Positions 18,611 through 40,826 of a stretch of 43,183 nucleotides of DNA are shown here, piece after piece. Every line of letters begins with the position of its first letter. Position 1 is the stretch's first letter. The position numbers and the translations under genes are program-made. Source of the stretch: Robiginitomaculum sp. (GTDB lineage: Bacteria; Pseudomonadota; Alphaproteobacteria; Caulobacterales; Maricaulaceae); contig JAESTZ010000046.1 of NCBI GenBank assembly GCA_016763315.1, positions 1-43,183 on the forward strand. Direction: 5' to 3'. The notes under the pieces were generated by a model that was not told the origin of the DNA, ran no database searches, and saw only the letters and a program-made list of their open reading frames with translations.

Positions 18611-18663
18611 CGTTGATGTTTTGACTCCGGAGCAAGTCCTGAGTGTCAGGATTAACTATAGGT

Positions 18664-18990
18664 GAACAAGGGTTAAACTAAAAACCCTTGATAGCACTTA
18701 CTTGGCAATGCTTGGTAAAAATATAGCCTCCAGCAAGGGTTAACTGGCAAAGATTTAGCACTCATTGACACTTAAAGACCCTTGGGTAGCGAGGATAAGT
18801 TTCAAACATACCCGTTTTGTCCTCGTTTGCTATAATGGTGGTGCAGCAGGCTATAAACCACCTGTTTGCGACTATTTGACATTGTGAATACACGTTAAAC
18901 TCAACAAAACGTGGATTTTACTGGTGATTACGAAGAGCCATGTGTGAAAATAATATTGATTCTTGATGAGCTTTTTTAAGGCTAGTCCCA
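18664..18990 (-). repeat. Dispersed non-coding repeat, copy A
   Basis: Read on the minus strand, this stretch aligns over most of its length with 40270-40578 on the plus strand. Shared blocks, in the same order, include: a CCATGG block; TAATCACC; GAGTTTA; TTCACxATGTCAAA; ACCATTATAGCAA; TTATCCTCG; TGTCAATGAG; and ATCTTTGCCAxTTAACCCTTG. AACCCTTG (18741-18734, minus strand) and CAAGGGTT (18690-18683) are inverted copies that could pair across 43 bases. A second CAAGGGTT/AACCCTTG pair lies at 18667-18690 with an 8-base loop. No open frame of note lies inside. Origin unknown. Confidence 0.8.
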
Positions 18991-19046
18991 TGGGTTAAAA
19001 TGAAAAACAGAGATATTATTTTTTGTTTGCAGCAAATTTAAAAATT

Positions 19047-20351
19047 TTACTGTTTTATCGCACGATCAAGTAAGTGATCCGGTGTTTCGCGAGATTGCAA
19101 TTCCAAAACCTCGATTTCCAGTTCTAACTGAAAAGGTTTTTCCGGATCATCACTCTCGAACGCAGTACAATCAACCACGCCTTCGATGCGCTTTGCGGCT
19201 AATTGAGCAGATTGCTTGCTGCCTCCTGGCATTAATATGGTAAACACACTGGGATCTATTCTTGCCGCCATATCTTCGGCTCTAACCAGATGTTGCAACA
19301 TGCCGCCAAACTGTTTTCTTGCAGCTTCGACCTTTGCCTCGGCAGTACCAGAAGGCGGAACGGCGCGAATTACACACAATGACAATGGTCTATTTAACTT
19401 ATTGGCGACATCTGTAGCGCGCGCTAAATGTTTGGCAAAAAATTGCGCGGTAAATAATCCCGAGACACTATCAATTACTGCAGGACTTTTAATTGCTTCA
19501 AATTGCTGTTTGACTTGCTCACGACGACGGCGATCGCTGGCCAAATTCAATATCCGCTGACGAACCACCTCCGGCCCATGGCCAGAGCTAACTAGATCCG
19601 AGGCTCCTCTGGCATACGCCTCATCAACTTCATTAAAACTTGACGGATTAACTAACATAACAGCAGGGACATGAAACAAACGGGTATTCCGACGCATGGC
19701 CGAGGCAATGGTAAATGCCGGCTCCAGCTCTTTTAGGACATTAAGAACTATCACGTCAAAAGTCTTGTCATGTAGATAATCAAATGCAGTAAACGAAGTC
19801 AAAGCGGCCGTCACCTCAACCCCGGCTGTCTCTAGCGAGTTCTTTAGCGAGATAAATTGAGGTGCGGCACCACCGGTAAACAAAATTGATATTGGTAATT
19901 GGTCAAACGGACTATTTATATCCGTATCAGGTTTAAGGCCAAGTTCCTCAAGAGTTAACGTGCGTAATTGCACCTCCTCTTCCATCAATGCCAACCGCAA
20001 CACAGATTGAACCCTTGCTGCCAACTGTGCCGGATGTACTGGTGGGAACAAAACACTGGCCAACAAATCACTGGTTTCCAAAGCCACATTATCAGAAACG
20101 GCAATTATCGGCAGTGTTCTTTCAGGAATACTTGCCTTTAATGCTTTGCACAATTCTTCGATTTCAAGTGGATCACGACCAATAGCATCAATCAGAACCG
20201 CACCAACGTTAAAATCCTCGGCGGCTATAAGTGCAGTTTCATCCGATTCGGCCAATATTGTCGGCAAACCACGGTCTTCCAATCGCCCTGCGGCTTGGAA
20301 AACAGCTCCTTGTTCATCAGCGATTACCAAAACTTGAGCGGTGAAATTCAT
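19047..20351 (-). CDS. PopA-like protein: two receiver-like domains and a degenerate GGDEF domain
   Basis: 434 residues. A first receiver-like domain (about 5-120) has a possible phosphoacceptor Asp55 (AVLIDA). A second (about 154-270) has Asn204 where Asp is expected (DVIVLNVLKE), so it is probably not phosphorylated. The C-terminal GGDEF-type domain (about 285-434) has DPSVF at 366-370 in place of GGDEF, so cyclase activity is unlikely. The product-binding I-site RAED (357-360) is intact five residues upstream, as in PleD-type proteins. Together these imply a c-di-GMP effector. In Caulobacter, PopA has this plan and directs CtrA to the ClpXP machinery. Orthology is inferred, not shown. Confidence 0.82.
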   Translation of the reverse strand: MNFTAQVLVIADEQGAVFQAAGRLEDRGLPTILAESDETALIAAEDFNVGAVLIDAIGRDPLEIEELCKALKASIPERTLPIIAVSDNVALETSDLLASVLFPPVHPAQLAARVQSVLRLALMEEEVQLRTLTLEELGLKPDTDINSPFDQLPISILFTGGAAPQFISLKNSLETAGVEVTAALTSFTAFDYLHDKTFDVIVLNVLKELEPAFTIASAMRRNTRLFHVPAVMLVNPSSFNEVDEAYARGASDLVSSGHGPEVVRQRILNLASDRRRREQVKQQFEAIKSPAVIDSVSGLFTAQFFAKHLARATDVANKLNRPLSLCVIRAVPPSGTAEAKVEAARKQFGGMLQHLVRAEDMAARIDPSVFTILMPGGSKQSAQLAAKRIEGVVDCTAFESDDPEKPFQLELEIEVLELQSRETPDHLLDRAIKQ

Positions 20352-39619: not shown

Positions 39620-40123
39620 ATGTATTTTGGTTGGCTGTTTGATTTTAGCAATCCCACTATGTGGGTTGCCCTTGCATTGTTGTCGTTTTTTGCAGTTATG
39701 CTGTATTTAAAACTTCCCAAAACGCTATCGAAATCTCTGGACGATCGCGCTGACAAAATCCGTGAAGAACTGAATCAAGCCAGGCTTTTGCGCGAACAAG
39801 CTCAAGAATTGTTGGCAAATTACACTCGCAAACAACGCGAAGCAGAACAAGAAGCAGAAAATATAATCAAGCAGGCTAAAAAAGAAGCAAAATTATATGC
39901 AGCTGACATGCGTACAAAGCTTGCCGAACAGCTAGAGCGACGCGCGGAGACCGCCAATCGTCGAATTGAACAAGCACAAGCACAAGCGGAAACTCTCGTG
40001 CGTAATCAGGCGATTGACCTAGCTGTAAAAGCTGCTGAAATTGCTTTGGAAACAGCCGTACCGAAAACGGCAAAAACCAAATTGATTGATAACAGCATCA
40101 AAGAAATGACCACTAAATTCTAA
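39620..40123 (+). CDS. atpF: ATP synthase Fo subunit b
   Basis: 167 residues. One N-terminal membrane helix (PTMWVALALLSFFAVMLYL) is followed by a conserved LPKTLSKSLDDRADKIREEL start of the stalk and a long coiled-coil rich in Ala/Glu/Lys/Gln. TAGGAGAC precedes the ATG, nine bases after the atpG stop. The b and b' proteins form the peripheral stator stalk that reaches the delta subunit of F1. It ends the operon, and F1 genes are not nearby, as is normal for alphaproteobacteria. Confidence 0.95.
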   Translation: MYFGWLFDFSNPTMWVALALLSFFAVMLYLKLPKTLSKSLDDRADKIREELNQARLLREQAQELLANYTRKQREAEQEAENIIKQAKKEAKLYAADMRTKLAEQLERRAETANRRIEQAQAQAETLVRNQAIDLAVKAAEIALETAVPKTAKTKLIDNSIKEMTTKF

Positions 40124-40269
40124 AGTTAATTCTAAAAACGTCTGATGAAAAACTAATAACCTCAATCATTTGACGCGAATTTATTGGGTTTACTCCCTCT
40201 GCCCTCACCTTACAAAGTAATACAACAGAGCCCCCTTAAAAAGGACTTTGCTGTTAACTGTCTATTTCC

Positions 40270-40578
40270 CCATGGATAACTCTAAAAACACCTTTCCTGA
40301 AAGTATTGCTTGTTGTGATAATCACCCGTAGCAAGCATAGCCATAACTCATGTTTCACTGAGTTTAGAACCTATTCACCATGTCAAAGAGCCACAAATTA
40401 ACCTGTTATAGCGATCTGCATGACCATTATAGCAAGTGGCTTGGTTGCGGGCATGGTTGAAGTTTATCCTCGGCTATTGATTGCTAATGAGTGTCAATGA
40501 GGGTGCAATCTTTGCCAATTAACCCTTGGCTCAGATAACTTTTTTGCCAATGATTGCTATTCAAGGGTTAACCTCAAG
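40270..40578 (+). repeat. Dispersed non-coding repeat, copy B
   Basis: This is the diverged partner of 18664-18990, in opposite orientation and 21.6 kb away. The longest shared block reads TGTCAATGAG, then ATCTTTGCCA and TTAACCCTTGG (about 40491-40529). AACCCTTG (40521-40528) and CAAGGGTT (40562-40569) could pair over 33 bases, mirroring the pair in copy A. The stretch from 40131 to 40270, between atpF and the repeat, shows nothing I can name. No coding frame with supporting sequence features was seen. Confidence 0.8.
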
Positions 40579-40590
40579 AGTCACGTGACC

Positions 40591-40669
40591 CCTGTTATGC
40601 ACCCTCCACTTTTGTCCTCCACCTTTATGGAGGAGGTGGCGGCGTAGCCGACGGAGGGGGTGCAACAGG
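40591..40669. repeat. Long imperfect palindrome, dispersed-repeat type
   Basis: CCTGTTATGCACCCTCC at the left pairs with GGAGGGGGTGCAACAGG at the right with one mismatch and small offsets. An inner hairpin forms from CCTCCACC and GGAGGAGG around TTTAT. The GGTGGCGGCGTAGCCGACGGAGGGGGTGC stretch, split here at its centre, looks like an intergenic repeat common in alphaproteobacteria, from memory. Its GC content is clearly higher than its surroundings. Confidence 0.65.
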
Positions 40670-40725
40670 CAAACCTCGTCACACAGGGCTTGGTTATGGT
40701 ACATCTTTGCTGCAACTCCACCATT

Positions 40726-40826
40726 GTCATACTCCGACTTGTTCGGGGTATCCACTTCGCGGTTTCTGGGTCACCGGAATAAATCGGACGATGACGGGCG
40801 TGACGGGATCAAGTCCGGCATGACGG
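40726..40826. repeat. REP-like palindromic element beside the Sel1 gene stop codon
   Basis: GTCATACTCCGACTTGTTCG at the left and the complementary right arm GATCAAGTCCGGCATGACGG (ending 40826) match the GTCATxCCGGACTTGATCCGG-type repeat frequent in alphaproteobacterial genomes. The space between holds TCACCGGAATAAATC and an extra GATGACGG. The right arm abuts the stop codon of the Sel1-repeat gene, so it may act as its terminator or stabilise the mRNA 3' end. Confidence 0.7.

Follow-up and report, generated by a model that had tools for sequence, protein, structure and literature searches.

Some 55 dispersed intergenic units with a conserved promoter and an rRNA-type boxA in a Robiginitomaculum genome

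Interspersed mosaic elements such as BIME and RIME are repeats scattered between genes that vary block by block in a mosaic fashion. Multicopy trans-acting small RNAs of Alphaproteobacteria are likewise intergenic and non-coding, and to our knowledge occur in few copies each and carry no boxA. This signal is known chiefly from rRNA operons and phages; in rRNA operon leaders it accompanies a hairpin (boxB) in Nus-factor antitermination. It has also been described upstream of non-rRNA genes (suhB and others), at 0-7 per gammaproteobacterial genome and within 50 bp of the gene start, in a survey that left non-coding RNAs aside (PMC5725501). The genome of Robiginitomaculum sp. studied here contains about 55 units, located between unrelated genes, which resemble each of these systems in part. 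Like an rRNA leader, the units feature a promoter, a hairpin and GCT(C/G)TTTGACA about 40 nt past the -10 box, but they are dispersed and no rRNA follows. They share with the boxA sequences of the survey a location outside rRNA operons, with 30-41 exact matches per genome in four genomes against the 0-7 of that survey (PMC5725501). Like mosaic elements they are dispersed, intergenic and block-wise mosaic, but they are larger and have a conserved promoter, boxA and fixed spacing. With multicopy small RNAs they have in common that they are intergenic, non-coding and present in several copies, but they have no Rfam match. A limited literature search turned up no description of such a family.

The window analysed is the whole stretch of 43,183 nucleotides of contig JAESTZ010000046.1 (assembly GCA_016763315.1). 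According to a preliminary description, its two longest gene-free stretches hold diverged copies of one sequence in opposite orientation. The two gaps (568 and 703 bp) are indeed the longest in a map of ORFs of at least 100 aa, and their opposite-strand local alignment scores 92, far above the maximum of 36 in 1000 dinucleotide shuffles, the comparison suggested at the time; in the same orientation the score is only 22. No third copy was found in the window by a search with the family profile. The extents first given, 18664-18990 and 40270-40578, were right as to place and too narrow as to span (18641-19026 and 40236-40624). Conserved blocks listed then can now be assigned: TTCACxATGTCAAA is boxA, ACCATTATAGCAA the -10 region, TTATCCTCG the GGGGATAAG box, and ATCTTTGCCAxTTAACCCTTG part of the upstream array. 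Neither the promoter nor the rrn boxA had been recognised, and the two copies are part of a family of more than 50. Their features are as follows, in window positions, with the RNA sense of copy 1 on the + strand and that of copy 2 on the - strand.

18641..19026, +: copy 1, whole element (profile envelope, 270 bits)
18664..18785, +: copy 1, upstream region with AAGGGT/ACCCTT-type sites (position in family alignment; family-wide motif enrichment)
18791..18799, +: copy 1, GGGGATAAG box, here GAGGATAAG (core alignment; hand placement)
18808..18813, +: copy 1, hexamer ATACCC, 17 bp before -10, putative role (family hexamer counts; hand placement)
18831..18836, +: copy 1, -10 box TATAAT, TG-extended (core alignment, family counts)
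18843..18869, +: copy 1, hairpin 1, at the expected transcript start (alignment, RNAalifold, strand folds; hand placement)
18871..18881, +: copy 1, boxA ACTATTTGACA, one base off the GCTnTTTGACA form (core alignment; rrn comparison)
18897..18919, +: copy 1, hairpin 2 (alignment, strand folds; hand placement)
19019..19024, +: copy 1, T-run, expected 3' end, 148 nt past boxA as in the family (by eye)
40236..40624, -: copy 2, whole element (profile envelope, 303 bits)
40477..40624, -: copy 2, upstream region with AAGGGT/ACCCTT-type sites (position in family alignment; motif enrichment)
40463..40471, -: copy 2, GGGGATAAG box, here GAGGATAAA (core alignment; hand placement)
40449..40454, -: copy 2, hexamer ATGCCC, 17 bp before -10, putative role (family counts; hand placement)
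40426..40431, -: copy 2, -10 box TATAAT, TG-extended (core alignment, family counts)
40392..40419, -: copy 2, hairpin 1 (alignment, RNAalifold, strand folds; hand placement)
40380..40391, -: copy 2, boxA GCTCTTTGACAT (core alignment; exact boxA pattern match at 40372-40387)
40343..40366, -: copy 2, hairpin 2 (alignment, strand folds; hand placement)
40238..40242, -: copy 2, T-run, expected 3' end, 149 nt past boxA (by eye)

The expected RNA, measured by hand, is 182 nt long for both copies. The gene facing copy 1 encodes a GGDEF-domain protein (19047-20351), and the one facing copy 2 the ATP synthase B chain (39620-40123).

Searches of the window's own genome (G000, 2.52 Mb in 122 contigs) with either copy returned at least 40 candidates each, nearly all of them real, and alignment of 44 copies defined a single element of about 385 bp, for which both window copies are full-length. 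A covariance model of the 137-nt core (R1), whose alignment took 44 of 52 G000 copies, gave 61 matches at E<=0.01 in G000 and 57 in G009, a same-genus genome that is 73% complete; strong matches, of at least 100 bits, numbered 51 and 54, respectively. Among 137 genomes of the family, R1 found matches in 7, all of them within the 18 of the genus. A sequence-only model built from 7 genomes (R2), run over 398 genomes of the order, had matches at E<=0.001 in 10, including 8 of the genus. Six genus genomes negative with R1 were positive with R2, with partial and weaker matches, and both models together place the family in 13/18 genomes of the genus. Judged by AtpB, the closest relatives with a name are Robiginitomaculum MAGs (86% and 83%), of the Maricaulales within the Alphaproteobacteria. 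As to R2 matches outside it, L352 resembles an rRNA leader by eye, and L351 (G216:C26:750-799, from another family of the order) is a boxA with the same GGCTCTTTGACATGGTGAATA ahead of what looks by eye like a CRISPR array. In G000, the starts of contigs C44, C63, C55 and C76 fall within copies that contain near-identical stretches; copies are therefore undercounted in the assembly or may be mis-joined. For unit counts, both boxes were required within one mismatch, which left out 3 of the 54 G000 copies; the resulting 51 units were joined by 49 of the 54 strong matches in G009 and by 20 copies each from G014 and G006 (at least 21 matches per genome), for a total of 140 units from four genomes.

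These results agree with the earlier view of an unrecognised dispersed non-coding repeat, and the search of its own and related genomes with a profile, proposed along with it, extended the repeat to more than 50 copies in G000 and across most of the genus. No credible open frame had been seen, and no conserved one emerged among 97 in-register copies in six frames, no 30-codon window being open in more than 56% of them. Nor was a named family found: the window had no match in Rfam 15 at gathering level, and at E<=1 nothing matched over the element at loci L010, L305 and L135 of three genomes, the one match at the E=1 limit lying outside it. A close pattern of the element had 0 matches in IMG/VR.

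In RNA sense, the element consists of an upstream array, the GGGGATAAG box, the -10 box, hairpin 1, boxA, hairpin 2, about 56 nt of variable sequence, TTATCC..GGGAAA and a T-run. The array occupies some 150-200 bp with repeated words of AAGGGTCA/TGACCCTT type, and the GGGGATAAG box stands between it and the promoter. The -10 hexamer is exactly TATAAT in 138/140 selected units and is preceded by TG in 136. The hexamer 17 bp upstream of it is ATGCCC in 53 of the 140, ATGCTC being commonest in G009, and hexamer counts over the 140 units did not find TTGACA at the -35 position. The boxA core TTTGA occurs in 139 of these units. The boxA itself is mostly GGCTnTTTGACATTGTGAATA in G000 and G009 and GCTCTTTGACAGGTAAATA in G014 and G006, and across 52 copies of 7 genomes the boxA block holds 10 of the 15 invariant columns. 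The partial constraint suspected earlier can be assigned to the promoter, boxA and hairpin blocks. An inverted repeat GCGGGGA..TCCCCGC before the -10 box was rejected as a consensus effect, RNAalifold giving the core without it.

Variants of this arrangement were noted by eye in five further genomes (G002, G003, G011, G013 and G017; L345-L365), in which the box before -10 is ACTTATCCCCG, the reverse complement of the G000 box, ATCCCC often stands 17 bp before -10, and TTATCCCCG recurs near the 3' end of the element. Four viral contigs of IMG/VR (L372, L374, L375 and L376, with L374 similar to L376) combine TATAATGG, a hairpin and GGCTCTTTGACA, which suggests, as judged by eye, that some phages may use the same promoter-hairpin-boxA leader.

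Spacing within the unit is rigid. The distance from -10 to boxA is 40 nt in 98/100 units of G000 and G009, and that from boxA to the T-run has a median of 148 (quartiles 147-149) in the 95 of these units where the script found a T-run, with medians of 144 in G014 and 143 in G006. Hairpin 1 shows a strand bias in the two closest genomes: at its 7 predicted pairs, 44 copies contain 47 G-U cells against 9 A-C cells, the latter being G-U on the other strand, and the sense fold is the more stable in 44/51 units of G000 and 42/49 of G009 (hairpin 2: 40/51 and 35/49). The bias is weak for hairpin 1 in G014 (12/20) and G006 (14/20), and reversed there for hairpin 2 (7/20 and 6/20). RNAalifold, proposed earlier as a check, predicts nothing beyond these 7 pairs for the core alignment of 44 copies and no pair at all for the alignment across 7 genomes, and whole-RNA folds vary from copy to copy. 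Covariation by G-test (44 copies) was discarded as support for pairing: the most strongly linked columns are neighbours within alternative sequence blocks rather than base pairs, which speaks for mosaics over structure. The search for a terminator hairpin was negative in G000 and G009, where shuffled sequences fold as well as the 42 nt preceding the T-run (z -0.04 and -0.13), so that an intrinsic terminator is unsupported in these two genomes. The same segment folds little better than shuffles in G014 and G006 (z -0.53 and -0.71), and several copies there have a CTTATCC..GGATAAG stem before the T-run, as seen by eye.

The near-invariant promoter and boxA, the fixed spacing, the strand bias in two genomes and the mostly convergent ORFs on the 3' side argue that the copies are separately transcribed units, each of which would yield a non-coding RNA of about 180 nt, a reading we hold to be probable though well short of certain. 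It is weakened by the weak or reversed bias in G014 and G006, the unsupported terminator, a -35 hexamer other than TTGACA, the few RNAalifold pairs and the 36/136 copies with a same-direction gene next to them. Among the three candidates initially put forward, a structured RNA is the best supported, by the G-U bias of one strand in the two closest genomes and by the fixed spacing of promoter, boxA and T-run.

Copies keep their places between G000 and G009 to a large extent, and their content is another matter. Of the 54 G000 copies, 35 share at least 300 bp of flanking sequence (65-96% identity) with a G009 copy on its corresponding side, and two more do so in mirrored form; the figure of 35 refers to G000 copies and not to unique pairs, as some of them pair with two copies in G009 and some G009 copies are shared by two in G000. 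The flank-matched copy was also the best sequence match in only 3 of the 35. Over a 240-nt register, the 30 pairs of same-place copies have a median identity of 0.596 (mean 0.602), compared with a mean of 0.568 when copies of the two genomes are paired otherwise, and over the variable 56 nt a median of 0.384 (mean 0.427) compared with 0.375. About 20 G000 copies have a best match in G009 above 0.59, the 95% level for shuffled sequences; the others do not. Since flanks are shared and yet the content is hardly more alike than that of random pairs, the content was replaced, converted or fast-diverging. We read these kept slots as the probable outcome of exchange, replacement or conversion among copies, the alternative being fast divergence in place. 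Identity within genomes (0.561 in G000, 0.592 in G009) is about that between them (0.568), and the copies of one genome have therefore not been homogenised. Strict concerted evolution is not supported, since G000 copies are no more alike among themselves than copies of different genomes are, and G009 copies only slightly more. Linkage of variable columns is 0.33 between neighbours and declines to 0.20 at distances above 32 nt, against 0.17 after shuffling, and, by eye, the variable parts fall into classes that recur at different places in both genomes. Two places (L024/L178 and L029/L212) are identical between G000 and G009 over the 240-nt register, with flanks up to 95-96% alike; recent transfer between species is a possible explanation.

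Other short repeats accompany the units. Short palindromes such as CGACTTGTTCGGGGTATCC and TCTCCCCGCTGGGGAGAAGG recur on their 5' side (window 40600-40810 and the right flanks of many copies), and the same is seen where the flanks of unrelated copies match over 45-125 bp. Several copies (L016, L021, L028, L036, L044, L045, L095 and L098) contain or adjoin another palindromic repeat of REP-like type, with AAAAGTGGGAACCGGTTTTG as its core and GCAATGCT/AGCATTGC as its ends; it resembles palindromic repeats of Rhizobiales, and in L045 it interrupts hairpin 1.

At longer evolutionary distance, places appear to turn over: 54 G000 copies compared with 40 sampled copies of G014 and G006 gave 3 same-side flank matches, 2 mirrored and 2 other. 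This scarcity of same-side matches would suit a MITE- or SINE-like element, non-autonomous and either mobile or selfish, with promoter and boxA serving its own spread, as would the more than 50 dispersed copies, the near-identical stretches seen by eye beside unlike ones in the alignment of some copies, and the argG gene, preceded by an element in G000 and by none in G009, G017, G003 and G011. The argG case is weak as an empty site because the G000 element there stands at a contig start; in G002, the gene upstream of this site looks by eye unlike that of the others. In the 37 full-length G000 copies, however, neither terminal inverted repeats (longest match 4.95 nt on average, 4.86 in shuffled sequences) nor target duplications (words of at least 7 in 3/37, 7.9% expected) were found. 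Moreover, constraint falls on the promoter and boxA rather than on the ends, and 35/54 G000 copies have same-side flanks in common with a G009 copy. We consider a mobile element quite unlikely, and the candidate proposed at the outset is not supported in its classical transposon form, although placements do differ between more distant species.

Words of the upstream array are tied to the element. In 103 elements of G000 and G009, AAGGGTCA occurs 144 times against 2 in the flanks, and GGGGATAAG 72 times against 0. The binding array considered earlier is thus retained as the upstream part of the element. An array for a nucleoid or regulatory protein could also be the whole point of the repeat, in the style of an interspersed mosaic element in which promoter and boxA are of minor importance. 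Such a site acting at the level of DNA would leave unexplained why hairpin stability depends on the strand in G000 and G009 and why -10 and boxA are near-invariant at a fixed distance, and we regard it as very unlikely.

Neighbouring genes bear on a further proposal, that of a 5' leader controlling the downstream gene. The next 3' ORF (at least 100 aa) is convergent in 100/136 copies of four genomes, at median distances of 38-50 bp, which runs against a leader; it lies in the same direction in the other 36, at medians of 69-165 bp. In G002, G003, G011 and G013, one copy each precedes what is by eye apparently the same glutamine-synthetase-type gene. On the other hand, scanning 30 of 49 G000 neighbours (10 same-direction, 20 convergent) revealed no common function, though three are translation genes (LepA, methionyl-tRNA synthetase and a pseudouridine synthase). 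Control of a downstream gene is accordingly a highly improbable function for the family.

The boxA sequence agrees with rRNA leaders of relatives. A 22-nt boxA stretch of the element matches exactly at single places in two other genera: in L109 some 240 nt separate it from a 16S rRNA gene downstream, and L108 has the same leader on a contig that ends ahead of the rRNA. The exact boxA pattern has 31, 36, 41 and 30 matches in G000, G009, G014 and G006, whereas the remaining 133 genomes of the family have 0-5 apiece and the reversed control gives at most 1 per genome. As 16S and 23S rRNA were not found in the G000 assembly, leaders were compared from G009 and G014; these contain GGCTCTTTGACATCG behind a different promoter (TTGACA..TATACA), unlike the promoter and upstream array of the units, and continue differently after boxA. 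The ORFs next to the units are protein genes, with no rRNA gene downstream. An origin of the units by duplication and decay of the promoter and leader of an rRNA operon is scarcely credible, despite a boxA identical to that of other genera, given this different context of boxA in G009 and G014 and key sites that are not decaying.

Beyond what was observed directly (copy number, architecture, spacing, a strand bias in G000 and G009, and unlike content between common flanks), we infer transcription, binding of NusB-S10 to boxA, and a role. In the transcription unit we favour, the array of AAGGGTCA-like sites and the GGGGATAAG box precede the TG-extended -10 promoter. Transcripts would open with hairpin 1 and carry the rrn-type boxA some 27 nt past the expected 5' end, followed by the second hairpin and a stretch of fixed length and variable sequence; they would end at the T-run, mostly close to the stop codon of the convergent gene. 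The boxA would load the Nus complex on the unit's own polymerase; at such copy number, boxA RNAs could also titrate NusB-S10 from rRNA operons, under control of whichever protein reads the array. Granted such a unit, the likeliest role, put forward only tentatively, is that boxA is its working part in both these ways. About as likely would be a trans-acting small RNA that uses boxA only against Rho.

The boxA is the most constrained RNA block across the genus and the internal stretch is changeable at fixed length, which fits an RNA whose duty is to display boxA. This display may serve the unit's own elongation or NusB-S10 binding in trans, the latter being plausible because there are some 55 copies. 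It is tempting to speculate further that some 55 boxA decoy RNAs, switched together by one protein reading the AAGGGTCA array, soak up NusB-S10 and so set rRNA output, a proposal that we ourselves think rather unlikely.

We rate the family as a putative small-RNA-type unit that bears an antitermination signal of rRNA type and stands out by its copy number and its evolution. With 30-41 exact boxA sequences per genome in rigid units, action in trans on Nus factors and ribosome synthesis becomes directly testable, and kept positions with dissimilar content in sister species offer a natural system for exchange among short dispersed repeats. If true, the decoy battery would represent a novel mode of global control over ribosome synthesis, exerted by a gene family whose members stay in place as their sequences are reshuffled.
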